A stretch of 64,000 bases of DNA. Source: Prosthecobacter sp. (GTDB taxonomy: Bacteria; Verrucomicrobiota; Verrucomicrobiia; Verrucomicrobiales; Verrucomicrobiaceae). Location of the stretch: contig JABARQ010000013.1 of assembly GCA_019186985.1 (NCBI GenBank), positions 186,001 to 250,000 of the forward strand, in the 5' to 3' direction. A program made the translations under genes and the position numbers. This document shows, piece after piece, positions 592 through 20,750 of this stretch (within the stretch, counting starts at the first letter, position 1; every line of letters starts with the position of its first letter). The notes beneath the pieces were generated by a model that did no database searches, was not told the DNA's origin, and saw nothing but the letters and a program-made list of their open reading frames with translations.

Positions 592-1665
592 GTGGCAGAA
601 AGGCGTTCTCCATCCCGCATGAAATACGCCGATCTGCATCGCATCTACCACCAGCCGTTCTTTGACCTGCTCAAGCATGCCCGAGCCGTGCATGAGGAGC
701 ATTGGACGGGCAATGAGGTGCAGCTGTGCACGCTGCTGAGCATCAAGACCGGCGGCTGCAGCGAGGACTGCGGCTACTGCGCGCAGAGCGCCCGCTACAC
801 GACCGGGGTGCAGGCGGAGAAGCTGATGCCGCGTGAGCAGGTATTGGAGCGCGCGCTTGCCGCCCGGGCAGGCGGCTCCACCCGGTTCTGCATGGGTGCG
901 GCCTGGAAGGGGGTGCGTGCGGGCACCCAGAAGTTTGACCAGGTGCTCGACATCGTCCGCGACGTGGCCAAGCTGGGCATGGAGGTCTGTGTGACACTGG
1001 GTGAGCTGGGGTCCGACGAAGCCCGTCAGCTCAAGGAGGCTGGGGTCACGGCCTACAACCACAACGTCGACACCTCGCCGGAGCATTATCCTAACATCGT
1101 CAGCACCCACAGCTTTGAGGATCGCCTGCGCACCATCCGCCACGCCCAGGATGCCGGCATGTCCGTGTGCTGCGGCGGCATTCTTGGCCTCGGGGAAACC
1201 ATCGAGGACCGGCTGAAGATGCTGGAGGTGATCTCGGGGTTCAACCCGCATCCGGAGAGCGTGCCGATCAACGCGCTCATGCCGATCAAGGGCACGCCCC
1301 TGGGAGACAACGAGGTGGTGGACTCCTTTGCCTTCATCCGGATGATCGCCGTGACCCGCATCGCCATCCCCCGTGCCAAGGTGCGCCTGAGCGCCGGTCG
1401 CACCAATCTGAGCCGTGAGGCGCAGGCGCTGGCCTTCTTTGCCGGAGCGAACTCCATTTTCTATGGGGACAAGCTGCTGACGGCCGCCAATCCGCGGGCG
1501 AATGAGGACCTGCGCCTGATTCGTGACCTGGGCTTGACCGCCCAGGAACCCAATCCCGGGATGGTGTCACCCGGGGCCGATGAGATCCGCCCGCTTTCTC
1601 CTGCTTTTTACGAGGAAACGGCGGGTTGTGAGCTGACCGGCTGCGGTGGCGGTTGTGGCGGCTGA
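592..1665 (+). CDS. bioB: Biotin synthase (radical SAM)
   Basis: Inserts sulfur into dethiobiotin to make biotin, the last step of biotin synthesis, in the cytoplasm. The radical-SAM cluster motif CxxxCxxC is present as CSEDCGYC about residues 56-63, preceded by LLSIKTGG, the usual BioB context. Further BioB-type segments follow, including YNHNVDTSPE and CCGGILGLGE. The C-terminus is Cys/Gly-rich (CELTGCGGGCGG), a tail seen in many BioB proteins. The GTG start at 592 is chosen for its Shine-Dalgarno; ATG 619 (348 residues) is the alternative. No other bio genes are visible, so the rest of the pathway lies elsewhere. Confidence 0.93.
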   Translation: MAERRSPSRMKYADLHRIYHQPFFDLLKHARAVHEEHWTGNEVQLCTLLSIKTGGCSEDCGYCAQSARYTTGVQAEKLMPREQVLERALAARAGGSTRFCMGAAWKGVRAGTQKFDQVLDIVRDVAKLGMEVCVTLGELGSDEARQLKEAGVTAYNHNVDTSPEHYPNIVSTHSFEDRLRTIRHAQDAGMSVCCGGILGLGETIEDRLKMLEVISGFNPHPESVPINALMPIKGTPLGDNEVVDSFAFIRMIAVTRIAIPRAKVRLSAGRTNLSREAQALAFFAGANSIFYGDKLLTAANPRANEDLRLIRDLGLTAQEPNPGMVSPGADEIRPLSPAFYEETAGCELTGCGGGCGG

Positions 1666-1738
1666 TTTTTCCAGGCCGCACCCAAGAAAACCCGTTTTAG
1701 CACGTCCTGCCCTCCCGCCTTCTCCTCTTCCAACCGCC

Positions 1739-3901
1739 ATGTCCGATCCCGTTCCTACCCCTGATTCTCCGGAAAACACGGCTTCGCAGCCGCCTGTCCA
1801 GCCGGGCATGGCCACTCAGCCGATGGGCTACCCGCCGGGATATCCGATGCAGCCGGGCATGGTGCCGCCAGGGTATCCTCAGGGCTATCCGCAGCCGATG
1901 GGCTATCCCCCGGGGTATCCAGTGCAGCCGGGCGTGATGCCGCCAGGGTATCCTCAGGGTTACCCGCAGCCGATGGGCTACCCCCCTGGGTATCCGATGC
2001 AGCCGGGCATGGTGCCGCCGGGGTATCCCCAGGGTTACCCGCAGCCGATGGGTTATCCCCCGGGGTATCCGATGCCCATGCCCCCCACAGGGGTGCCCGC
2101 TCCGGGTGCTCCCACGGAGGCTCCCGCCGTTGTCCCCGTTCCTGCTCCGGCTGCCGCCCCGGCTCCAACGCCCGCCCCGGTGCCTGCCGTGGCCGCCATT
2201 CCCGTTCCTTCTGCCGCCGAGGCCACCCCTGCCGTGGCGGTTGCGGTTGTTCCTGCGGACAGCGACGAGGCGGAGGCAGTGGCCGTGGCGGAGGAAATTC
2301 ATGAGGAGGGCCACGTTTACCACCCTGCTGCGGTGCATCATTTCGAGTCCAAGCCGGTGAATCCGCTGGTGAGGATGTGGCGCAAGGTGGGTGGCGGATC
2401 GCTGACGCTGAGCCTGGCGATTCATGCCGGGATCCTGATCGTGGGCGGGGCCATCGTGGTGAGTTCGCAGCTGATCCAGAAGCAGGTGGACTTCCTGCCG
2501 GGCGGCGGCACGCAGCAGGGGGCGCAGGCCAGCGCCGAGATGAAGCACAAGGTGAATCAGAACAAGCGGAAGTCGTTGAACAAGACGATGCCGATGAAGA
2601 AGATCGTGAGCACGAGCAGCAACTCGGCGATCACGCTTCCGGACGCACCGCCTGACCTGCTGGACGTGCCGGACGTGAGTTCGATGATCGGCGGAGGCTC
2701 GCTGGGCAGCGGAGGCTTTGGCAAGGCGGGGTCGGGTGGTGGCTTTGGCACGGGGATGGGCATGGGCTCCATGCAGGGATTTGTCAGCCTGCCGCCTTCC
2801 ATGAAGACCCGCTGCTCACCACAGGAGCGCTTGAAGAAGCTGGCTGAGAGCGGTGGGTCGCCGGAGTGCGAGCGCGCGGTTTCGAACTCGTTGGAATGGC
2901 TGAAGACGAAGCAGAACCCGGACGGTTCCTGGGGAAGCAGCAACAAGGCGGCGATGACCGGCATGACGCTGCTGTGCTTCCTGGGCCGGTGTGAGACGCC
3001 TGATTCGCCGTTCTATGGCGACAACGTCATGAAGGGCATCATGTACCTGATTGAGCTCTCCAAGAAAAATGAGTTTGGTGCGATCACGGAAGATTTCAAA
3101 GGCAACGCCGGAGCTTACGAGCATGGCATCGCCACCTATGCGCTGGGTGAGATGTACACGCTGGCGAGGCTTGGCAGCAAGGAGCTGCCGGGCATGAAGG
3201 ACGCCTTCGTCAAGGGTGTCCAGCTCATCATCAAATGTCAGAACAAGGCGGATGCCGGCAAGGCCGAAGGTTCCTGGGACTATTACACGAAGAACATTTC
3301 CGAGGGCAATCCCACCTCCAAGCGTGAAGACCTTTCCGTGGCGGGCTGGCAATACCAGGCCCTGAAGGCGGCGAAGTTCACCGGATTGAAGATCGAAGGC
3401 CTGCACAGTGCGATCGACAAGACCTGCGACTACATCGAGCGCACCCAGACCAAGGATGGCGGCTTTGGCGTGGCCAACCGTGACCAGCACTACAACCAGT
3501 GGAGCCTTACCGGCACAGGGGTTCTGGGTCTGCAGACCCTGGGCAAGGGGCGCACGGCCTCCATCAAGAAAGGCATCGAGTTCCTGCACCGCTTCCTGGA
3601 GGCGGAGCCGCTCGACTGGCAGAAGAACTGCAACCTGTACTGCTGGTACTATTACACCCAGGCCTTCTTCCAGGCCGGTGGAGATGAGTGGAAGTTCTAC
3701 AACCAGCAGTTCCTGCCGCAGATCCTCAACGCCCAGAACCCGGATGGCAGCTTCAAGGCCGGGAGGCCGAACTGGCCTTCCGGTAGCGACAACGGCAACC
3801 CCATCTACCGCCAGGTGCTCTGCACGCTCCAGCTTGAGGTCTATTACCGTTACCTGAAGGTTGGCGACCGCGAGGAGCAGAGCTTCTTTGACCGCCAGTA
3901 A
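1739..3901 (+). CDS. Membrane-anchored protein with proline-rich repeats and a terpene-cyclase-like (squalene cyclase repeat) domain
   Basis: 720 residues in four parts. Residues about 24-115 are a Pro/Tyr/Gly tandem repeat, followed by an Ala/Pro-rich stretch to about 180. One membrane segment lies at about 221-244, after the basic MWRK. A Gly-rich linker follows at about 315-350. From about 375 to the end there is a helical domain with repeats of the squalene-cyclase type (QNPDGSWG, TQTKDGGFGV, QNPDGSFK). That alpha-barrel fold occurs in prenyltransferases, cyclases and many noncatalytic exported proteins. I see no DXDD cyclase acid motif, so an enzyme role is unproven. The ATG at 1739 is chosen because the in-frame upstream codons overlap the bioB end. 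Such anchored proteins are common in Planctomycetes and Verrucomicrobia, without known function. Confidence 0.75.
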   Translation: MSDPVPTPDSPENTASQPPVQPGMATQPMGYPPGYPMQPGMVPPGYPQGYPQPMGYPPGYPVQPGVMPPGYPQGYPQPMGYPPGYPMQPGMVPPGYPQGYPQPMGYPPGYPMPMPPTGVPAPGAPTEAPAVVPVPAPAAAPAPTPAPVPAVAAIPVPSAAEATPAVAVAVVPADSDEAEAVAVAEEIHEEGHVYHPAAVHHFESKPVNPLVRMWRKVGGGSLTLSLAIHAGILIVGGAIVVSSQLIQKQVDFLPGGGTQQGAQASAEMKHKVNQNKRKSLNKTMPMKKIVSTSSNSAITLPDAPPDLLDVPDVSSMIGGGSLGSGGFGKAGSGGGFGTGMGMGSMQGFVSLPPSMKTRCSPQERLKKLAESGGSPECERAVSNSLEWLKTKQNPDGSWGSSNKAAMTGMTLLCFLGRCETPDSPFYGDNVMKGIMYLIELSKKNEFGAITEDFKGNAGAYEHGIATYALGEMYTLARLGSKELPGMKDAFVKGVQLIIKCQNKADAGKAEGSWDYYTKNISEGNPTSKREDLSVAGWQYQALKAAKFTGLKIEGLHSAIDKTCDYIERTQTKDGGFGVANRDQHYNQWSLTGTGVLGLQTLGKGRTASIKKGIEFLHRFLEAEPLDWQKNCNLYCWYYYTQAFFQAGGDEWKFYNQQFLPQILNAQNPDGSFKAGRPNWPSGSDNGNPIYRQVLCTLQLEVYYRYLKVGDREEQSFFDRQ
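1817..2074 (+). repeat. 75-bp in-frame tandem repeat, 3.4 copies
   Basis: Copies begin at 1817, 1892 and 1967, with a partial copy from 2042. Each full copy encodes 25 residues starting QPMGYPPGYP and ending PPGYPQGYP. The copies differ by a few silent changes and M/V swaps, so the array is maintained as protein repeat and prone to copy-number change. Confidence 0.9.
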
Positions 3902-3918
3902 CGGCGAAGGTCGGCGGG

Positions 3919-4584
3919 TCAATCCTGCAGGGCGGGCACCTGTTTGCCAGCCTTGCGGGCGGTGGTGATGAAGGCTTCCTGAAGATAGAAGGGCTCAAGG
4001 CGGCGTGCCGACAGGTCCATGACCTCCTGGTCAGTCAGCCCTGTGACGATCTGGCAAAGCCTGTCGGCATTCGGCCGCAGAAGAGGGAGGTCGGAAAATC
4101 CGGCGGGTGAACGGGGGTCGAAGGAAACCCAGCTGGCGCCCTGCTCGACCAGCTCGGCCGCCTGCTGGGAGGTCACCAGGAGGGGCGGGCGCACCAGGTG
4201 TCCGTCTTGAACGCGGGCATGGTAGAACATGCCCCTTCGTGCGTCGCCGAGGACGGAGTATTCCTTCAGGCTGGCGGTGCAGATGGATGGCCAGCCGATG
4301 ACGGGCCAGCCACGGGACAAGCCGACTCCCTGCGCAGCGGCGATGGCAATGCGGACTCCTGTGTAGGAACCAGGCCCGGTGCCGACGACCACGACGGCTT
4401 TTGCGTTTTCCGGCACATGGGTCAAGGCCTCCGCCAGGGGGGCGAACACCTGGGCATTGTGCGAACGTTCGGACTGAAACGTGGCTTCAAACAGCGGCTG
4501 CCCGTCCTGGCATAGGGAGATCATCCCCCGGGCGGTGGAGAGGTCGAGGGCCAGGACCGTGCAGGAGTTCATGATTGTTTTCAT
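3919..4584 (-). CDS. tsaB: tRNA threonylcarbamoyladenosine biosynthesis protein TsaB
   Basis: An ASKHA-fold protein that pairs with TsaD (and TsaE) to transfer the threonylcarbamoyl group to A37 of ANN-decoding tRNAs. The N-terminal strand LALDLST and the signature GTGPGSYTGVRI are diagnostic. At 221 residues it is close to the usual 220-235. The start is the ATG at 4584, which shares its first base with the TGA of the NTF2-like gene upstream (TGATG), so the two are translationally coupled; a TTG one codon earlier is possible. It converges on the cyclase-repeat gene with only 17 bases between the stops. Confidence 0.9.
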   Translation of the reverse strand: MKTIMNSCTVLALDLSTARGMISLCQDGQPLFEATFQSERSHNAQVFAPLAEALTHVPENAKAVVVVGTGPGSYTGVRIAIAAAQGVGLSRGWPVIGWPSICTASLKEYSVLGDARRGMFYHARVQDGHLVRPPLLVTSQQAAELVEQGASWVSFDPRSPAGFSDLPLLRPNADRLCQIVTGLTDQEVMDLSARRLEPFYLQEAFITTARKAGKQVPALQD

Positions 4585-9657: not shown

Positions 9658-9717
9658 TTTGAACATGAGTCTCCTGCCTTGACTCTCACCCCGCCCCCAT
9701 TGACCGTTTCACCCTGC

Positions 9718-10731
<1,014 letters not shown>

Positions 10732-10803: not shown

Positions 10804-11718
10804 GTGAAGCCAACCCCACCAGAAACCGAAGACGAACGCCTCACGCGCATCCTGAAGAGGGTGCGCAGGATCGAGCTGGTCACGCGCGGCATCGTCAAGG
10901 AGACGCTTGGCGGAGCCTATCACTCGCGCTTCAAGGGGCAGGGGATCGAGTTTGACGACTTCCGCGAATACCAGCCCGGTGACGACGTGCGCTTCCTCGA
11001 CTGGAACGTCACCGCCCGCATGAACGACCCCTATGTCCGCAAGTACATCGAGGAGCGCGAGCTGACCGTCATGCTCGTGGTCGACGTGAGCGGTTCGGGC
11101 GACTACGGCAGCCAGGAGGACAGCAAACGCGAGCGTGCCGCCGAGGTCGCGGCGGTCTTCGCCTTCAGCGCGGTGCAGAACCAGGACAAGGTGGGGCTGA
11201 TCCTCATTTCGGACCAGGTCGAGCACTACCTTCCGGCGCAGAAGGGAGGCTCGCACGCGCTGCGCTGCCTGCGTGACATTTTGAACCACCGCCCGCAGAG
11301 CCGCCGAACCAATCTTGCTCCCGCCCTGGACCTGGCGCTGACACGGATCGCCCACCGGGCGCTGGTGATCGTGGTGTCGGACTTCCTCACGCCGGACCAG
11401 GCCTGGGAGCACAGCCTGAAGTCCCTGGCCGCCAAGCATGACGTCGTCGCCGCACAGGTGACCGACCCCAGGGAATGGGAGCTGCCGACGGTCGGCAGGG
11501 TGTGCCTGCAGGATCCTGAAACCGGCGAGCAATATGTCGTGAACACCTCGCATCCGGCCGTGCGCCGCCATTACGCCGCCCGGATGAGCGAGCGCCAGGA
11601 GGCGCTGGGCCGCAGCCTGCGCAAGCATGGCGTCGAGCGCCTGGACGTGCGCACCGATGACGATTACGTGCCCGCCCTGAAGGCCTACTTCCGCAGCCGG
11701 AAAAGGAGGAGGAAATGA
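10804..11718 (+). CDS. DUF58 domain protein (VWA-like)
   Basis: 304 residues. The DUF58 signature is clear: GIEFDDFREYQPGDDVRFLDWNVTAR (split here for reading as DFREYQPGDD then DWNVTAR), followed by the VWA fold with a complete metal-ion site start, VVDVSGSG (DxSxS). No membrane segment is evident, so it is probably cytoplasmic, working with the MoxR ATPase encoded 72 bases upstream. The start is GTG at 10804; no in-frame ATG fits. The last codons contain the Shine-Dalgarno of the next gene, and the stop overlaps that gene's start (ATGA). Confidence 0.88.
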   Translation: MKPTPPETEDERLTRILKRVRRIELVTRGIVKETLGGAYHSRFKGQGIEFDDFREYQPGDDVRFLDWNVTARMNDPYVRKYIEERELTVMLVVDVSGSGDYGSQEDSKRERAAEVAAVFAFSAVQNQDKVGLILISDQVEHYLPAQKGGSHALRCLRDILNHRPQSRRTNLAPALDLALTRIAHRALVIVVSDFLTPDQAWEHSLKSLAAKHDVVAAQVTDPREWELPTVGRVCLQDPETGEQYVVNTSHPAVRRHYAARMSERQEALGRSLRKHGVERLDVRTDDDYVPALKAYFRSRKRRRK

Positions 11719-12257
11719 AGGTCTTGCCGTTCCAGCCAGTGATTGCCCAGCAGGCCGGCCAGGGGCCGCCCCTGCAGCCGCTGCCGCATCCTGAGCTGCC
11801 GGACCCCGCCCTGGTGACCTCCGGTCCTGAATGGTGGGTCTATGCCTCTGCGGGCGGACTGGTGGTCATCCTGCTGGGGCTTGTCATCTGGCTGCTGATG
11901 CGACCCGCCAGGACCTCGCCGCCGCCCATGAAGAAGCCCTACGCCGCCGCGATGAACCGCCTGCGCGACATCCTGGCGAAGGCCTCGCAGCAGCCTCCAG
12001 CCAGGACCGCCGCCGACGTCTCCGAGACGCTGCGCATCTATTTCCACGACCGCTACAGGATCCCCGCCCCGTTCCGCACGACGAACGAATTGTTTGTCAA
12101 CGGAGGCATCCCGGCGGCCTCGCCGCGGCTGCAAAGGTACGCCCCCCTGGCCGAGCTCTGGGACCAGCTTGCCTTCGCCCCCGTGCCGGCGGACCCGCAG
12201 CAGGCGGCCGAGCTTGTGCAGAAGGCCATCTCACACCTTGAGGAGGACCGTTCATGA
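11715..12257 (+). CDS. DUF4381-like membrane protein of the bat operon
   Basis: 180 residues: a Pro-rich N-terminal stretch, one strong membrane segment at about 41-65 (WWVYASAGGLVVILLGLVIW), then a helical domain (MNRLRDILAKA, DVSETLRIYFHDRYRIPAPF). This is the single-span helper commonly found between the DUF58 and BatA genes. It is preceded by a strong AGGAGG five bases before the ATG, lying inside the DUF58 gene, and it overlaps both neighbours by four bases (ATGA), so the three are translated in series. Its biochemical role is unknown. Confidence 0.78.
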   Translation: MKVLPFQPVIAQQAGQGPPLQPLPHPELPDPALVTSGPEWWVYASAGGLVVILLGLVIWLLMRPARTSPPPMKKPYAAAMNRLRDILAKASQQPPARTAADVSETLRIYFHDRYRIPAPFRTTNELFVNGGIPAASPRLQRYAPLAELWDQLAFAPVPADPQQAAELVQKAISHLEEDRS

Positions 12258-13279
12258 GCATCCCCTTCCTGCCCGGCATGATCTTCGGCCGCCCCGAATG
12301 GCTGCTCCTGCTTCTTCTCCTGCCCGTCATGGCCTGGTGGCGCGGGCGGACCGGCAAGGCGCCTGCGATCGCCTTTTCCACCGCCTTTGTGCTGCGTGAG
12401 ATGGGCGTCCGCACCCGCAGCGCCCGGGGCGGCTTCACCCTCGGGCTTGTCCTCCTCAGCCTTGCCTGCGCCATCATCGCGCTCGCCAGGCCGCAGAAGG
12501 TCATCTCCCACGACGAGGAGAACACCGAGGGGATCGCCATCTGCCTCACCGTCGATGTTTCGCTCTCGATGCTCATCGAGGACTTCTACATCGGCGGCAG
12601 TCCGGTGAACCGGCTGACGGCGGCGAAGCGCGTGATGCGTGACTTCATCCGCGGCCGCAAGTCCGACCGCATCGGCATCGTGGCCTTTGCCGGCGCTCCG
12701 TATTATCCCTGCCCGATGACGCTCGACCGCGAGTGGCTCGAGTCAAACCTGGAACGCGTCCAGACCGGCGTCATGGAGGACGGCACGGCCATCGGCTCCG
12801 GACTCGCAGCCGCCGCCCGCCGCCTCGACAAGGAGACCGTGCCCAGCAAGGTCATCATCCTGCTGACCGACGGCGCCAACAACAGCGGCAAGCTCAGCCC
12901 CCAGGACGCCGCCAAGCTGGGCGCCACCCTAGGCATCAAGATTTACACCATCGCCATCGGTACGCCCGGGGTTCACATGATCCCCCTGCCCAACGGCCGC
13001 GTCATCACCAGTGGACGCCAGGAGTTTGACGAAGCCACCCTCCAGGCCGTGGCGAACATCGGCGGCGGGTCATTTTACATGGCTCAGGATCTCAGCGCCC
13101 TTGCCGACATCTTCGAGACCATCGACAAGCTGGAGAAGAAGGAGATCAAGAAGCGCACCATCTCCGAGACCGAGGAGCTCTTCTTCTATCCGCTGGCCGC
13201 CGCCGCTTCACTGCTCGGGCTGGCCCTGCTCCTGCGTTTCACCTTCCTGAACGCGGCCCCGATGGCCGTGGCCACCTGA
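12254..13279 (+). CDS. batA: BatA-type VWA membrane protein
   Basis: 341 residues: two N-terminal membrane segments (WLLLLLLLPVMAWW; GLVLLSLACAIIALA), a VWA domain with the metal site DVSLS near residue 98 and the later LTDGANNSG strand, and a C-terminal membrane segment (PLAAAASLLGLALLLRF). Two-helix anchor, periplasmic VWA, then a last helix is the standard BatA layout. AGGAGG seven bases before the ATG supports the start. It overlaps the previous gene by four bases and is followed after one base by the next VWA gene. Bat proteins are linked to aerotolerance and envelope stress in Bacteroides and Leptospira, but the mechanism is open. Confidence 0.88.
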   Translation: MSIPFLPGMIFGRPEWLLLLLLLPVMAWWRGRTGKAPAIAFSTAFVLREMGVRTRSARGGFTLGLVLLSLACAIIALARPQKVISHDEENTEGIAICLTVDVSLSMLIEDFYIGGSPVNRLTAAKRVMRDFIRGRKSDRIGIVAFAGAPYYPCPMTLDREWLESNLERVQTGVMEDGTAIGSGLAAAARRLDKETVPSKVIILLTDGANNSGKLSPQDAAKLGATLGIKIYTIAIGTPGVHMIPLPNGRVITSGRQEFDEATLQAVANIGGGSFYMAQDLSALADIFETIDKLEKKEIKKRTISETEELFFYPLAAAASLLGLALLLRFTFLNAAPMAVAT

Positions 13280-13280
13280 C

Positions 13281-15260
13281 ATGTCCTTCCTCGCCCCCAA
13301 GATCCTCTGCTGGCTTCTTGCCCTGCCTGTCCTTGCAGGCTTCAAGGCCTGGGCGGACTGGCGTGCCCGGAAGGTTCAGGCGGCCTTCGCCGCGCCCCGG
13401 CTGCGCGACGCCCTGGTCTCCGGGGTCTCCAGCGGCCGCTCCTGGCTCATCTTCGTCTTCCAGGTCCTGGCCCTCGCCTGCTTCATCATCGCCCTGGCCA
13501 GGCCCTGGTGGGATGAGGACAAGGTGGTGCAGCAGGAGTCGGGGCGGAATGTCATCATCGCCATCGACAGCTCGCGATCCATGCTCGCCAACGATGTCGT
13601 TCCCGACCGTCTGACTCGCGCCAAGCTTGCCGCCCAGGACCTGATGCTGTCCCTCAAGGACGACCGTGTCGGGCTGATCGCCTTCGCCGGCAACGCCTAC
13701 CTCCAGGCGCCGCTCACGACCGATCATGACGCCGTGGTGGAGGCCATCCAGTCGATTGATTTCACCTCGGTCCCCCGTGGTGGAAGCGAACTGGGACGTG
13801 CGTTGAAGCTCGCAATCGAGACCTTTGAAAAGAGCCCTGCCAGGAATCATGGCCTGATCCTGTTCAGTGACGGCGGCGAGCCAGACAGCGAGATCAGCGC
13901 CTATGCGCAGCAGGCGGCCAGGAAGAACATCCTGGTGCTCACCGTCGGCGTGGGCACCGAGGGGGGCGCCCTGATTCCCGACCCGGATCCAGACCGCTCC
14001 GGCGATTTTGTGCGTGACCGCGAAGGCAACGTCGTGAAGACCCGGCTGGAGCCGCAGCCGCTGCAGGAGATCGCCGCTGTCACACGCGGCCGCTACCTGA
14101 GGCTGGGGTCACAGGGACTGGCGGCCGACGTGGTCCGCAGCCTGGTTGCCAGCCTTCAGGCCCAGACCAACGCCGCCCGTGAAATCGTGAAGCCGATTGA
14201 GCGTTTTTACTGGCCGCTGTCTATTGGAGTGCTGTTACTTTTCGCCGCCTGGATCATCCGCCCCGCCGCCCGCATGAAAACGCCCGTGACCCCGCCCGTC
14301 TTCGCCCTGCTGGCCTCCCTGCTGCTTGTGCCCGACGTCGATGCCGCCGATCCCGGCTTCCTCGGATCCGTGCTGGGCTCGAAGAAAAATGCCGAATCCG
14401 TCGAGGCCCACGAGGCCTACAAGCGCGGCGAGTTTGATCATGCCGCCAAGCGGTATGAGGAACTACTCAAGCAGTCGCCGGGCGTCCGCCAAAAGCCTCT
14501 TTTCGCCTACGGCATGGCCGCCTCGGCCTTTCAGCTCAAGGACTATGACAGGGCGGTCGCCGGTTACAGCCAGGCGCTGGAAAGCCCTGACTCCAAGGTG
14601 CAGAACCAGGCTCACCGCGGCCTGGCCCACAGCCTCTATGACCAGGGAGACAAGGCGCTGCCGAAGCAGCCGAAGTTCACCCTGAAGGCCTGGCGTGACA
14701 GCGTGAGGCATTTTGACGCCTCGCTGGCGATTGATCCCGGCAACAAGGAGGTCCGTGAGAACCGTGACTTTGTCCAGAAGCGCCTCGATGAACTGCAGCA
14801 GCAGATGAACCAGCAGCAACAGCAGGGCGGCAAGGGTAACAAGGGCGACAAGAAAAAAGGTCAGAAGGGCCAGAAGGGCGAAAAAGGCCAGAAGGGCCAG
14901 GAAGGTGACGAGCAGGAGGGCGACAACGGTGACGAGGAAGGCGAGGGCGAAGGTGAGGATGACAAGTCACGCAAGGAAAGCCTGGGCAAGAAGGACGGCG
15001 AGGAGGAGGGGGAAGGCGAGGGCAAGGAGCACGACAAGGAAGGGCAGCTCCAGGCTGGCGAGGGTGGTCGTGACGAGACGCCCGAAGCTCGTGCAGCGCG
15101 TGAACGTCGTGAGGCCGAGATGGCTGAGAACCAGCAGAACGAGGCCACCGGTTTCAGCCGCAATGAGGCGCGGTCCTTCCTCCGCACCTACGCCGATGAC
15201 CAGAAGAAGGCCATGATTGTCCGGCCCCGCGATGAACCTGTACGAGGCAAGGACTGGTAG
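13281..15260 (+). CDS. BatB-BatC fusion: VWA membrane protein joined to TPR protein with charged tail
   Basis: 659 residues. Residues 1-330 are BatB-like: membrane segments, a VWA domain with DSSRS near 95-99 and FSDGGEPDS, and a C-terminal membrane helix. At M332 a typical signal-type segment begins (MKTPVTPPVFALLASLLL, ending VDAAD). After it come TPR helices at about 375-510 (YKRGEFDHAAKRYEELLKQ and copies). From about 512 the tail is low complexity, rich in Gln, then Gly/Lys/Glu with GxK-type triplets, as in BatC. In Bacteroides these are two genes. Either the fused chain spans the membrane more than once, or an internal start at M332 also makes free BatC. The tail ends RGKDW. Confidence 0.85.
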   Translation: MSFLAPKILCWLLALPVLAGFKAWADWRARKVQAAFAAPRLRDALVSGVSSGRSWLIFVFQVLALACFIIALARPWWDEDKVVQQESGRNVIIAIDSSRSMLANDVVPDRLTRAKLAAQDLMLSLKDDRVGLIAFAGNAYLQAPLTTDHDAVVEAIQSIDFTSVPRGGSELGRALKLAIETFEKSPARNHGLILFSDGGEPDSEISAYAQQAARKNILVLTVGVGTEGGALIPDPDPDRSGDFVRDREGNVVKTRLEPQPLQEIAAVTRGRYLRLGSQGLAADVVRSLVASLQAQTNAAREIVKPIERFYWPLSIGVLLLFAAWIIRPAARMKTPVTPPVFALLASLLLVPDVDAADPGFLGSVLGSKKNAESVEAHEAYKRGEFDHAAKRYEELLKQSPGVRQKPLFAYGMAASAFQLKDYDRAVAGYSQALESPDSKVQNQAHRGLAHSLYDQGDKALPKQPKFTLKAWRDSVRHFDASLAIDPGNKEVRENRDFVQKRLDELQQQMNQQQQQGGKGNKGDKKKGQKGQKGEKGQKGQEGDEQEGDNGDEEGEGEGEDDKSRKESLGKKDGEEEGEGEGKEHDKEGQLQAGEGGRDETPEARAARERREAEMAENQQNEATGFSRNEARSFLRTYADDQKKAMIVRPRDEPVRGKDW

Positions 15261-15283: not shown

Positions 15284-17896
15284 ATGAATTTCGCAGGCTT
15301 CCGTTTCTTGACCCCGCATCCAGGCTGGCTGCCGTTGCTGCTGGCGCTGCTCGTTTCCTCCCTGGCCCAGGGCGCCACGATCCGCGCCTATGTGCAGCCC
15401 TCCACCGCCCGGCCCAACCAGGTGATCAACTATGTCATCACCGTCCAGGACGGCCAGGTGAACAGCGTGCCGAACCTGCGCTTCCCCCTGCAGATCGGCC
15501 AGACCAGCGGGGTCAGCACCTCCCAGCAGATCCAGATCATCAACGGACGCCAGAGCGCCTCCATCCAGCTGTCCTGGGGCATCACGGCCACCGAGCCCGG
15601 AGAGTTCGTCATTCCTCCCCAGACGGTGGTTGTCGACGGCCAGCCCCTGACCACGAACGAGGTCAAGCTCACCGTTGAAAATGGCGGCGGGGCCTTCCCC
15701 AAGAACGACCAGGATCCTTCCCAGGATGACGCCAACCGGCCGATCCTTCAGATCGAGCTGGGCAAGAAGGAGATCTACCAGGGCGAGGTCGTGCCGGTGA
15801 ACGTCAGCCTGTATGTGCCCCGTCAGGTACAGCTTCGCAGGCTGGGGCTGATTGAGATGGAAAAGAGCGACTTTGCCATCGCCCGCTTTCCTCAGACGAA
15901 CGAGCAGTCCAGCACCGTCATCGACGGCATCGGTTACTATGTTCTGACCTTCCGCAGCACCCTTTCCTCGCTTCGCACCGGAGATCTGAAGGTCGGCCCC
16001 GCCAACCTTGAACTGCTCGTCGAGGTGCCGGCGGAAGGTCAGCAGCGCGGCGCCTTCCCTCCTGGCTTCGGGCAGAACTTCCCGCCCGGCTTCTTCCCTG
16101 GAATGTCCGAGCCCAGAAAGCTGGAGGTCAAGAGCCAGCAGGTGACGCTGAAGGTGCTGCCGCTTCCAGCCGAGGGCAGGCCCGCCAGCTTCAGCGGAGC
16201 CGTTGGTGAGTTCCAGATGAACGCCTCGGCCTCGCCCACGGACCTGACTGTCGGCGATCCCGTCTCGGTCGACCTCGTGGTCGCTGGTGCCGGAAACTTT
16301 GATGCGCTGAACACACCCGCCCTGGTCTCGGCCGGAGGCTGGAAGATCTACCCTGCCAAGCGCTTCGTCATCGAGGGGCCGATGGATCAGAACCAGACCC
16401 CGACGGTCGAACGCAAAATCGGTTACACGCAGGTGATCGTCCCCGAGGCGGTGCACCCCAGCGTGCCCGCCTTTGAGCTGAACTACTTCAGTCCCTCCCA
16501 GAAAAAGTACGTCACGCTGCGCACCGAGCCCATCGCCCTGAACATGAAGCCCGCACCGGTCACGGCTGCTGCGGAGTCGGCCGGTGCCGCAGGAGCTCAG
16601 GTTGTCGCCGAAACTCCCGTCGCTCCTCCTGTGGCGGACCCTCAGGCAGACATCACCGACATTCTGGTCCGGCCTCCCGCCAGATCCCGCTGGCTGGCAC
16701 CGACAAGCACGCTGCTTCTGCGCAGCGGCACCTTCTGGACGCTGCAGGGAGCCCCCGTGGCGCTCTTTGCGATCGCCTCTGTCCTGGCCGTGGCGCGCCG
16801 CCGCCGGGAGTCCCGTCTGGCAGGGCGTGCCGGGGAGCTTCGGGCCGCCTGGCAGAGCTTTGAATCCCAGGCGTCCCGGGCGGATGATCAGGAGTTTCTG
16901 CGCGGCGCCGCCCAGTTCATCCAGGTGGCGCAGTCAGGCCGTCCGGTTCCTCCTGGTCCGTTGAAGGCCATTCTTGACCGCTATCAGGCCACCAATTTTT
17001 CCGCCGCCCACGGGCCTGCCCTGCCGGATGCCGAACGCCGCGAGATGCTGGCCACCCTGGCCGCCCTTTTCCGGCAGACGCTCGCCCGGCTCAGCCTCCT
17101 CCTGCTGACATCGCTGCTCCTCGTGAATGGTTCCGTGTCGGCCGCCGAGGCCCCCAAGGCAGCTTCGGCAAGCCCTGATGCGGTTTATCAGGAAGCCGTC
17201 GCTGAAATCGAGAAGGGCAACTTCAACCGTGCCCAGTACCTGGCCGAGTCGCTGGCGAAAAAGAAGCCGCCGCAGCTAAGCGCCGAGGTTTTCCAGATCA
17301 TCGGCCACGCCAGGTACCGCCAGGGTGACATGGGCCGTGCCGCGCTCTGGTATCAGCGCGCCCAGCTTCTCGATGGAAGGAATGCCGAGCTGAAGCAGAA
17401 CCTTCGCCACATCCATGAAAGGACGCGCTACCTGAGCTTTGGGGAATCCTCACCGCTGCGCCTGGCCAGTTTTTACCTGAGCACCAATGAGTGGCTCATC
17501 CTCGCGGCCTCTGGTGTCTGGCTCATCTTCCTTTCCCTGGCCTGGCGTGTGCTTGCCGGCGCCGACCGCAGGTCTTCCTGGCCGGTCGTGGCCAGTGTCA
17601 TCGGGCTCTTCATTGCCGTCCCGGCTTCCACTTTTGCCGCTCTTCGCCCGCTTGGACCTGAGCGGGTGAAGGACATCAGCATCGTCACCCAGCCCGATGT
17701 GAACTCCTACACCAGCGCTACGGTGACCAGTGGTTCCGTGATCTCACTGCCGCCCGGCAGTCAGGTGCGCACGCTGGAAACACGCGGCCCCTGGCTTTAC
17801 GTCGAAATCCCCGGCTCACCAGAAAACCTGCGAGGCTGGGTGGAGGCTGCCGCCGTGACGCCGCTGTGGACCTGGGATGCCAGCCTGGTGCCCTGA
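15284..17896 (+). CDS. BatD-BatE fusion: beta-rich periplasmic protein joined to TPR/SH3 membrane protein
   Basis: 870 residues. A signal peptide (to about 28) leads to the BatD region (VQPSTARPNQVINYVITV and similar repeats of beta domains), then a membrane helix at about 484-503 followed by RRRR. A second signal-like helix follows at about 599-620 (LSLLLLTSLLLVNGSVSAAEA). After it come TPR helices at 636-705 (AVAEIEKGNFNRAQYLAE; ARYRQGDMGRAALWYQRAQ), two more membrane helices near 730 and 765, and a bacterial SH3-like domain to the end (GPWLYVEI, GWVEAAAV). The order TPR, two helices, SH3 is that of BatE. An in-frame ATG at residue 588 sits just before the second signal helix. It closes the operon. 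Confidence 0.83.
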   Translation: MNFAGFRFLTPHPGWLPLLLALLVSSLAQGATIRAYVQPSTARPNQVINYVITVQDGQVNSVPNLRFPLQIGQTSGVSTSQQIQIINGRQSASIQLSWGITATEPGEFVIPPQTVVVDGQPLTTNEVKLTVENGGGAFPKNDQDPSQDDANRPILQIELGKKEIYQGEVVPVNVSLYVPRQVQLRRLGLIEMEKSDFAIARFPQTNEQSSTVIDGIGYYVLTFRSTLSSLRTGDLKVGPANLELLVEVPAEGQQRGAFPPGFGQNFPPGFFPGMSEPRKLEVKSQQVTLKVLPLPAEGRPASFSGAVGEFQMNASASPTDLTVGDPVSVDLVVAGAGNFDALNTPALVSAGGWKIYPAKRFVIEGPMDQNQTPTVERKIGYTQVIVPEAVHPSVPAFELNYFSPSQKKYVTLRTEPIALNMKPAPVTAAAESAGAAGAQVVAETPVAPPVADPQADITDILVRPPARSRWLAPTSTLLLRSGTFWTLQGAPVALFAIASVLAVARRRRESRLAGRAGELRAAWQSFESQASRADDQEFLRGAAQFIQVAQSGRPVPPGPLKAILDRYQATNFSAAHGPALPDAERREMLATLAALFRQTLARLSLLLLTSLLLVNGSVSAAEAPKAASASPDAVYQEAVAEIEKGNFNRAQYLAESLAKKKPPQLSAEVFQIIGHARYRQGDMGRAALWYQRAQLLDGRNAELKQNLRHIHERTRYLSFGESSPLRLASFYLSTNEWLILAASGVWLIFLSLAWRVLAGADRRSSWPVVASVIGLFIAVPASTFAALRPLGPERVKDISIVTQPDVNSYTSATVTSGSVISLPPGSQVRTLETRGPWLYVEIPGSPENLRGWVEAAAVTPLWTWDASLVP

Positions 17897-18104: not shown

Positions 18105-20750
18105 ATGAGCTTTTCGTTCCGCACCATGTTCCAAAACAGCCATGAGGCCGGCCAGCAGGCTGGCAGAGCTGTGATGGATCCCGCTGGCACGAGTCCGGCT
18201 GCCCTGTCGTCCGCCATTATGCAAGCCGCCCTTCCGCTCAACGCCGTCAGTCCGTTTGGAGGTCCGCTTTTCAAGGCCTCAGCAGGAGAGCAGGCTGTGG
18301 CAAGCCCGGTGGCGGGATCCCCCTTTTCAGTGTCGTCCGCCGGCCCGGCAAATGTGCCGCTGACCGTGGGTGATGTGATGCCGCAGCTCCCTCCGGAGCT
18401 TGCCAGGTCGGGGGCCCTGCCTCCGGATCATCCGGTGGCTCTTTCCAGCCAGGTGATTGATGAGGCCTTGCGCAGCGGTCGTGCTTCAGTGCCGGTTTTT
18501 GAAGTCTACCGGGTGTGCCCGGCCCTGTTTCAAGCGCCGGTTTCACCGCAGGATCAGCGCATGGTGCCGCTTCCGGCTGCAAAGCTTCCGCACTTGATTG
18601 CGGCTTCCAGGGGAGGCCAGGCTGAGGTGCCTGCCCCGGTTCCTTCATCCATGGTCAAAGCTTCGCCGTTCATGATGGCGGTCATTCCTTCAGAACCGGC
18701 TGCTGCGATGCCTTCTGCATCGGCCGAGGCATCGGTTGGAACGGGTACGCTGCTGCCTCCGAAAAGACAGGGTCCCCCACCTGCGCTGGCGGATGTCGGC
18801 AGGATGGTTTCTCCTGATGTGGCCCTGCCCGGCACGGCGGCGGCTTTTCCCATGAGTCCTTTTGCCGTGGGGGCAGGGGCAAATCCAACGGTGCAGGCTG
18901 CACCGTCGGCGTCTCCTTTTGCGGTCCCTCCTTCGGAGCCTGCATCCGCCCAGCCGCCCCGCATGGAGCAGGCTGCGTCACCCTTTCAAACAGCGCCTGT
19001 CCCCGCTTCGCCTTTTGCCCCGGCTTCGCCTTCCACTCCGGAAGCTCCGCCGACACAAGCTGCGGATTCTCCTTTTGCCGCCGTGTTTGGCGGCAAGGCG
19101 GTGCCGGTCAGCCCTCCTGGCATGGAGGCTCCGCCTTCACCTGCTCCTGGCGTGTTCCCGGCCCAACCCCCTGCGGACGCTGTTCTTCCATCCTTTGGAT
19201 CGGCCGCTTCCGCTCCTTCCCAGGCCATGGGGGGCGGAATGGTCAGGATCGCCCTGGCATCCTTGTTAAAGGGTTACAGCGTCGCTGAACTCGGCTTTGA
19301 CCCCATGGTGGTGCCGGGCTGGATCACCACGGCCCTGCCCTCCCATGTGGCCAGGGAGCTGGCGATTTCATCGACGCCGCTTGTCGAGCTTGGCCTGCTG
19401 GTGGATGGCATCACGGACGTAGGATTCCGCAACGTGTTGAACACGGCCAAACGCGAGTTTCAGATGCGGGTGGATCCCGGGGTTCTTCAGCAGGCGCTTG
19501 CCGGCAATCATCCCCCTGGCGGCCTGCCCAGCCTGAGCAACCTTGGACCCGGTTCACTCAACGCCGCTCCCAAGCCTGCGCCTTCGTTTGGGGCTCCTCC
19601 TGGCGGACCGATGCGGGTCGAGCCCTCCGCGCCTCCGACATCCTTCACGCCGCCGCAGCCATCGATGCCCTTGACGCCTGCGACGCCGGTGCTGAAGCCG
19701 CCGCAGCAGGCGTCACAGGCGCTGGAAACCGAGGCGCCCTCGCCCTTCCTGGTGCCCGCCGCAGCCTCGAAACCTTTGTTTTCACCCGCCACCGCCAGGG
19801 ATCCGTTCTCGGTTCCTGCGGAATCTGCCGCATCTTCCTTGGGTGCTGGCATCGGAATGCCACAGGCTCCCAGGCATCAGGACTTCATGGCGAGCAGTCC
19901 GCAGACCAGGGAAGTGCCGGTGGCGGTCCAGGTTCCGCCCTTGCTGACGCCAGCCCCGGGAAGTTCGTTCCTGGGTGGTGATGCGGACAAACCCTCAGGG
20001 GATGGATTTGGCAGTGATCAACTGCTGGGCCGCGTCTCCAGCTCCACTGCAAGCTGGAACGAAGCGGCGGTCACCAGCGCAATGGGTGAGTCTCCGGTTT
20101 TTCCGCCGGCCAAGGAGGCTCCGCTCATCGAGCTTCCGCCTGCAATGCCTTCCCTGGACGAGCCTGCTGAACCTGAGCGCGGCTGGGCGGCGTCGCCCGC
20201 CACCCGTCCGTTCATCGCGCCGAAGTTTGATGACATGCTGCCGCCGGTGCCGGTGGAGGAAGAGCCGCCGCGTCTGCGGAAATCCTCGCCGCCCCCGCCG
20301 CCCCGTGCGGCTGCCAACGGCAGTTCCTCGAATGTCGGGGTGCAGGCCCATGACTCGGATCCTGACCAGATCGTGCTTCGTGCCCTGCTGGACACGGACT
20401 CAGACCTCGAACCGCAGAAGGTGGTGGAGCTCACCTGCAGGCTGCCGGGCATTGCCGCCTGCGTCTGCCTGCATGACGGCAGGGCCATCTCACATGTCGG
20501 CGCCCACAAGCCGCAGGCCCGGGAGTTCCAAAAGCAGGCGACCCAGCTCGCCCAGCACCTCAAAACACTCGCCCCGCTGATCGGCATCGATGGAGCCGAG
20601 ACCTTCACGATGAATTCCGGCGACCGACTGATGACCTTCTGTTTTCCAGACCGGGCCATCCTTGGCGTCCTGCATGATGCCGAGCCCACCCTTGGCCTCA
20701 GGGATAAGATTACCTTGATCGCCAGGGAGCTTTCCCGCATGGTTTCCTGA
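18105..20750 (+). CDS. Large disordered SPF-repeat protein with C-terminal roadblock/LC7-like domain
   Basis: 881 residues, mostly Pro/Ala/Ser-rich and probably disordered, with nine SPF and one DPF tripeptides scattered through it (e.g. ASPFAVPP, DSPFAAVFG). Three stretches look folded: about 80-165 (PLTVGDVMPQLPPELARSG), about 375-467 (MVRIALASLLKGYSVAELGF), and the C-terminus from about 751. The last (DQIVLRALLDTDSD, LPGIAACVCLHDGRAISHVG, then strands and a final helix) has the secondary-structure order and phrasing of roadblock/LC7 proteins, the class that contains MglB, the GTPase-activating partner of MglA. The stop is followed after one base by the start of an MglA-family GTPase, which strongly supports the roadblock reading. 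The start ATG 18105 has no clear Shine-Dalgarno. Confidence 0.7.
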   Translation: MSFSFRTMFQNSHEAGQQAGRAVMDPAGTSPAALSSAIMQAALPLNAVSPFGGPLFKASAGEQAVASPVAGSPFSVSSAGPANVPLTVGDVMPQLPPELARSGALPPDHPVALSSQVIDEALRSGRASVPVFEVYRVCPALFQAPVSPQDQRMVPLPAAKLPHLIAASRGGQAEVPAPVPSSMVKASPFMMAVIPSEPAAAMPSASAEASVGTGTLLPPKRQGPPPALADVGRMVSPDVALPGTAAAFPMSPFAVGAGANPTVQAAPSASPFAVPPSEPASAQPPRMEQAASPFQTAPVPASPFAPASPSTPEAPPTQAADSPFAAVFGGKAVPVSPPGMEAPPSPAPGVFPAQPPADAVLPSFGSAASAPSQAMGGGMVRIALASLLKGYSVAELGFDPMVVPGWITTALPSHVARELAISSTPLVELGLLVDGITDVGFRNVLNTAKREFQMRVDPGVLQQALAGNHPPGGLPSLSNLGPGSLNAAPKPAPSFGAPPGGPMRVEPSAPPTSFTPPQPSMPLTPATPVLKPPQQASQALETEAPSPFLVPAAASKPLFSPATARDPFSVPAESAASSLGAGIGMPQAPRHQDFMASSPQTREVPVAVQVPPLLTPAPGSSFLGGDADKPSGDGFGSDQLLGRVSSSTASWNEAAVTSAMGESPVFPPAKEAPLIELPPAMPSLDEPAEPERGWAASPATRPFIAPKFDDMLPPVPVEEEPPRLRKSSPPPPPRAAANGSSSNVGVQAHDSDPDQIVLRALLDTDSDLEPQKVVELTCRLPGIAACVCLHDGRAISHVGAHKPQAREFQKQATQLAQHLKTLAPLIGIDGAETFTMNSGDRLMTFCFPDRAILGVLHDAEPTLGLRDKITLIARELSRMVS

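Follow-up and report, generated by a model that had tools for sequence, protein, structure and literature searches.

The DNA analysed here (the window, 64,000 nucleotides of contig JABARQ010000013.1 of Prosthecobacter sp.) contains a reading frame in which BatB, a membrane protein with a VWA domain, continues into the TPR protein BatC, and this raises the question whether the cell makes one envelope protein from it or two. If BatB is built like BB0173 of Borrelia, for which three transmembrane (TM) helices and a periplasmic VWA domain are described (PMC5700661), its third helix leads the chain back into the cytoplasm, and export of the TPR part requires a further signal. Judging from its sequence and those of relatives, the frame is probably the precursor of two envelope proteins, with a buried signal that would be cut by signal peptidase I (SPase I).

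The bat operon and its batB-batC reading frame

According to Pfam and NCBIfam, genes for MoxR, DUF58, BatA, BatB/C and BatD follow one another in this order on one strand of the window and form a bat operon. The first gene encodes a MoxR-type AAA+ ATPase (9679..10731, + strand; Pfam AAA_3, 9.1e-65, and AAA_lid_2). It is followed by the genes for a DUF58/VWA_2 protein (10804..11718, +; Pfam DUF58, 1.3e-82), a DUF4381-like protein (11715..12257, +; Pfam DUF4381, 1.4e-4, under its cut-off) and BatA with a VWA domain and an N-terminal TM pair (12254..13279, +; NCBIfam BatA_Lepto, 6.7e-52, under cut-off; Pfam VWA and BatA). A gene annotated as DUF4381 occupies the same slot in Agrobacterium, Pantoea, Persicobacter and Catenovulum. 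Then come two fusions, batB-batC (13281..15260, +; 659 aa; ORF, Pfam and NCBIfam) and batD-batE (15284..17896, +; 870 aa; Pfam BatD, 8e-19). After the operon lies an Ala/Pro/Ser-rich ORF of 881 codons (18105-20750, +) that gave no Pfam match at 0.01.

Judging from operon and domains, BatA, BatD and the cytoplasmic MoxR ATPase are probably partners of the VWA and TPR parts in a single envelope complex. Aerotolerance as the function of the Bat proteins is doubtful by analogy with Leptospira biflexa, in which deletion of all bat ORFs affected neither growth rate nor oxidant tolerance (PMC3557215).

The batB-batC frame comprises 659 codons from an ATG start and is free of internal stops. As the preliminary description had claimed, the VWA protein thus runs straight into the TPR protein, with Pfam matches to the BatA N-terminal region at residues 1-75, VWA at 90-226 and TPR at 375-434. 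Residues 1-331 (13281..14273, +) were assigned to BatB because they comprise a BatA-type N-terminal pair of TM helices, a VWA domain that has MIDAS residues, and one more TM helix behind it. In our AlphaFold2 model these helices span residues 6-36 (TM1), 51-72 (TM2) and 310-326 (TM3). The VWA residues D96, S98, S100 and D197, which we take to be the MIDAS of the domain, are invariant in the 48 aligned sequences. The BatB crystal structure of B. thetaiotaomicron (3ibs) was the top match both by sequence (7.1e-33) and by fold and is the closest solved structure. The NCBIfam model BatB_Lepto matched residues 59-321 (2.3e-27) with 96 bits against a curated cut-off of 350, a shortfall to be expected in another phylum, since the model is of the 'exception' type and carries the name of Leptospira. 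BatC_Lepto, likewise a Leptospira 'exception' model, matched residues 375-542 (5.4e-4) with 19.5 bits against a cut-off of 175.

The second part was assigned to BatC because a TPR domain (TPR_2, 1.1e-7) directly follows BatB within the bat operon; TPR_2 was matched in 41 of 48 relatives, too. Predicted mature BatC comprises residues 356-659 (14346..15257, +; Pfam TPR_2 and TPR_16). In the model it consists of a TPR domain (about 368-517), a disordered charged linker (about 517-599) and C-terminal helices. The model, built with 48 sequences, has a mean pLDDT of 78.3 and is confident for TM1, TM2, TM3 and the TPR domain. The segment joining the two parts appears as a low-confidence helix of eight residues (341-348), with a pLDDT of 44-53 per block of ten. 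These low values may merely reflect poor conservation, and the model cannot decide on cleavage.

The order of the parts is that of the Bacteroides genes, as had also been proposed at the outset. In Bacteroides and Parabacteroides the operon encodes, like that of the window, an AAA ATPase, a DUF58 protein, one further gene product and then VWA, VWA, TPR, BatD and TPR proteins. The last four (VWA, TPR, BatD family, TPR) are separate coding sequences there, whereas they form two fusions in the window.

Fused and separate genes in other genomes

The fusion recurs among relatives. A search of 56 genomes, the window's own included, gave a match in 55. The first set of 48 loci (30 plus 18, with the window itself as one locus and seven representing the same contig under another name) has VWA and TPR in one ORF in 46 cases, duplicates included. 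The exceptions are one locus at a contig end (L029) and one that is split by another ORF (L030). The 18 named relatives belong to the Verrucomicrobiota and include metagenome-assembled genomes called Prosthecobacter as well as Brevifollis gellanilyticus NBRC 108608 (L043).

In a search of the phylum, 180 of 194 genomes (again including the window's own) had matches. We added 80 regions, hand-picked among the matches listed in this search, and twelve plasmid records. The resulting 188 loci contained 185 with a VWA match, of which 175 were distinct: 138 with a long extension behind BatB, 36 standalone and one without class. In six plasmid loci BatA was the best VWA match, and these were assigned by hand to the fused neighbour. 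The iterated TPR profile matched 112 of the 138 tails, which are also counted separately below; the other 26, though kept among the 138 'fused' rows, miss the profile, and one of them (L188) is clearly unrelated. In this locus (genome G185, ORF 1070-3535) a BatB-like VWA protein carries a tail unrelated to BatC. On a FastTree phylogeny of 172 rows, the state fused or split requires 15 changes.

Separation also occurs close to the window. In a genome of the same genus whose neighbours are fused (G014), an ORF of 545 codons lies between batB and batC (L049, minus strand, 2875-4512), and the product of the detached batC begins with a signal-like stretch. In another genome (G016) the TPR gene lies on another contig and encodes a signal-like N-terminus. 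Beside the separate batC of G016, a 36-base unit recurs with a period of about 70-72 in a CRISPR-like manner (L051, 41-782).

The joining of batB and batC is common and not new, as it has been published for L. biflexa, in which VWA and TPR likewise share one ORF beside batA and batD, while the genes are apparently not fused in pathogenic leptospires (PMC3557215). Fusions of bat genes in Borrelia burgdorferi, Spirochaeta thermophila and Francisella tularensis are also noted in this paper, whose main text nowhere uses the term 'signal peptide'. The fusion as such is ordinary, and the interesting part is the internal signal peptide that is conserved within it.

The segment at the join and the start of batC

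Residues 332-355 (14274..14345, +) have the build of a signal peptide. Behind TM3 follow the residues RPAAR and an n-region (MKTPVTPP), with a few positive charges, then a hydrophobic core of about eleven residues (VFALLASLLLV, 340-350) and a short c-region (PDVDA), before the chain goes on with ADPG. By the -3/-1 rule, small residues at these positions predict an SPase I site between A355 and A356 (VDA/AD, the slash marking the site; 14343..14348, +), and the peptide beginning there would be ADPGFLGSVLGSK. The site recurs in relatives. In the alignment of the genus this part is free to vary and contains insertions and deletions, yet most rows have a site, e.g. SAQA/A, SAHA/F or PDASA/A. Comparable sites were found at the joins of Agrobacterium, Ensifer, Paracoccus, Caballeronia, Pantoea, Pseudoalteromonas, Vibrio and Catenovulum. 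The VWA-TPR gene on plasmid pPP2 of Persicobacter psychrovividus (L076, ORF 2848-4584) has a lipobox-like LMGC at the join, the sole such case among the 138 fused or extended proteins under a pattern widened to allow M at -2. In view of this motif in the internal segment, BatC of this organism may be released as a lipoprotein.

To all segments we applied a strict rule, by which the best hydrophobic 10-mer is followed by [AVSTI]xA, whose final residue falls at index 2-10, and no proline stands at +1. At the join this motif was present in 113 of the 138 fused or extended proteins, whereas 500 shuffles of the 20 residues following the core averaged 65.8 and reached 85 at most. A permissive SPase I rule was satisfied in 135 of 138 (shuffles, 108.5). 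The N-terminal signal peptides of BatD, used as positive control, gave similar values (62/75 strict, 72/75 permissive). In helices taken as uncleaved the motif was found as well, namely in TM2 of BatB (61/167 strict, 78/167 permissive) and in TM2 of BatA-like proteins (53/118 and 74/118, respectively). Since kinship inflates such counts, we also scored the rows with a TPR-profile tail (90/112 strict) and one sequence per 50%-identity cluster. The latter gave 33 of 37, with a mean of 15.2 and a maximum of 23 in 1000 shuffles, and TM2 in this cluster set gave 18 of 33; the shuffles assume independent rows, an assumption eased only here. Outside the phylum eight of nine joins carried the strict motif, the ninth being that of Persicobacter with LMGC. 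At the join, small -3/-1 residues are kept at the proper distance from a hydrophobic core beyond chance.

AxA alone was rejected as proof of cleavage, since the TM2 controls carry it, too: via a conserved ALARP motif it occurs in TM2 of 49 of 167 BatB proteins, against 8.0 in shuffles. Core length was rejected for the same use, because its values at the join overlap those of TM3 and of genuine N-terminal signal peptides (median run free of charged or strongly polar residues: join 12, TM2 16, TM3 14, BatD 15, separate BatC N-termini 14). As AxA is insufficient by itself, the case for cleavage rests on the excess over shuffles in the clustered data together with the gene structure.

As the main alternative, the segment might be an uncleaved fourth TM helix, a signal anchor in a four-span protein with both VWA and TPR domain in the periplasm. 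Such a topology would be workable without cleavage, and BatC of Cetobacterium begins with an apparent plain TM anchor; the AxA of the uncleaved TM2 and the failure of core length alone to discriminate point the same way. We nevertheless consider the anchor rather unlikely, as the small -3/-1 residues persist well beyond shuffles although neither the length nor the sequence of the linker around them is constant. The lipobox-like motif of Persicobacter also argues against it, as do the many separate BatC proteins that begin with a signal-like N-terminus and a site. Separate BatC proteins were collected from 32 of the 36 standalone loci as ORFs of at least 200 codons starting at the batB stop, called by position and by eye without the TPR profile; three are from other phyla, and four loci were left out in which an adjacent BatC-like ORF is absent (L030, L050, L053 and L057). 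Many have an evident signal peptide, e.g. MKNILLASLLLSALRAGA followed by ADD. Their N-termini carried the strict motif in 21 of 32 (shuffles 14.6 +/- 2.7, maximum 23) and the permissive one in 27 of 32 (24.4 +/- 2.1, maximum 30).

The preliminary description had left a choice between cleavage by signal peptidase and additional synthesis of BatC from an internal start, pointing to an in-frame ATG, which is indeed present at residue 332 (base 14274) and opens the signal-like stretch. That BatC is also or mainly initiated at this Met is very improbable. Eight sequences of the alignment (39 in all), among them that of the window, have ATG AAA opening such a stretch at the column of residue 332. 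It resembles the start of a separate batC gene; in 27 of the 32 separate genes the start can overlap the batB stop by four bases, a count favoured by choosing such a start wherever one existed. A Met located between TM3 and the core, however, is present in only 32 of the 138 fused loci and absent from 106. A Shine-Dalgarno core (GGAG, GAGG or AGGA within 15 bases before the start) precedes 23 of the 32 separate batC starts but none of the 32 fused internal Mets, against a background of 15% (2069 of 13757 positions in the same ORFs). Where ATG AAA stands at the join (eight sequences), no Shine-Dalgarno core occurs in the 30 bases examined. In a single gene such an absence would mean little, because the batBC and batDE starts of the operon in the window show no clear Shine-Dalgarno sequence either. 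The internal start was rejected on the distribution of Met and the Shine-Dalgarno count.

As far as the sequences tell, the fusion has lost the batC start and kept the signal, and this combination of missing start features with retained signal features favours processing and disfavours internal initiation. Of the two routes suggested beforehand, cleavage is thus the one that gained ground, through the site conserved beyond shuffles, the lipobox-like motif and the signal-like N-termini of separate BatC proteins; the position of the cut is predicted. A sequencing or assembly error that merely joined two genes, with a stop to be found around 14250, can be dismissed because other assemblies, B. 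gellanilyticus NBRC 108608 among them, carry the same fusion.

The proposed precursors and the batD-batE reading frame

In the proposed BatB-BatC precursor, TM1 to TM3 would place the VWA domain in the periplasm and return the chain to the cytoplasm, as others have shown for the Borrelia homologue BB0173. The TPR domain would then be exported by residues 332-355, acting as an internal Sec signal peptide. Cleavage by SPase I behind A355 would give equal amounts of two products, BatB (1-355) in the membrane and mature BatC (356-659) in the periplasm. The fusion probably arose by a frame change that joined overlapping batB and batC genes. Thereafter the start and Shine-Dalgarno sequence of batC would have been dispensable, with the batC signal peptide still under selection.

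A precursor of this kind is known from Bradyrhizobium, in which the cytochrome b/c1 precursor FbcH is made as one chain and cut at a buried signal peptide into two envelope proteins. FbcH works as proposed here for BatB-BatC, the proteins being unrelated. An internal export signal behind Sec-inserted TM segments is also found in dual Sec/Tat proteins, e.g. Sco2149; unlike in our proposal, its Tat signal stays as a TM anchor, and a cleavage site was introduced for a reporter (PMC5449189). The titles and abstract openings returned by our literature searches, mostly without subscription journals, contained no pointer to an internal signal peptide at the BatB-BatC join.

The VWA-TPR genes of Proteobacteria are like that of the window in being one fused ORF, with VWA and BatD neighbours where annotated. 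Their proteins, of which four in the alignment share 22-23% identity with that of the window, also have an internal segment that resembles a signal peptide, with small residues at -3/-1. On balance, we lean towards the view that in much of the Verrucomicrobiota, and in Proteobacteria, Bat proteins are made from polyprotein precursors (BatB-BatC, and here BatD-BatE), whose internal Sec signals would be cut by SPase I, or by signal peptidase II in one Persicobacter. This would fix a 1:1 stoichiometry, with repeated fusion and splitting while the cut site was kept. Entries annotated just as 'VWA domain-containing protein' would then be misread as one protein where the cell probably makes two. Processing would also explain the equivalence of fused and split bat operons and add a clear bacterial case of precursor cleavage at internal signal peptides.

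The adjacent frame (15284-17896) joins BatD to a TPR-type protein via a second buried signal-like segment, residues 603-620 (LSLLLLTSLLLVNGSVSA, then AEA; 17090..17143, +), with a predicted site between A620 and A621. At the BatD-BatE join the strict motif is not above chance (16/24; shuffles 14.2 +/- 2.4), and the permissive SPase I rule gave 24 of 24 (shuffles 19.4 +/- 1.7). The frame is apparently a second precursor of like design, for which the evidence is weaker than for batB-batC. Borrelia BB0170 (BatD, TPR and SH3) similarly has BatD and TPR in one protein; neither 'cleav' nor 'signal peptide' occurs in the main text of the paper on it (PMC5700661). The genes batD and batE are fused in 17 of the 18 loci L031-L048, and the remaining locus ends with its contig. 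In the Proteobacteria, in contrast to batD-batE of the window, the annotated product of the BatD genes is a single BatD or oxygen tolerance protein, and Bacteroidales encode BatD and the TPR protein in separate genes. In other Verrucomicrobiota BatD and BatE frequently come from two genes, and several of these standalone BatE proteins begin in a signal-like manner.
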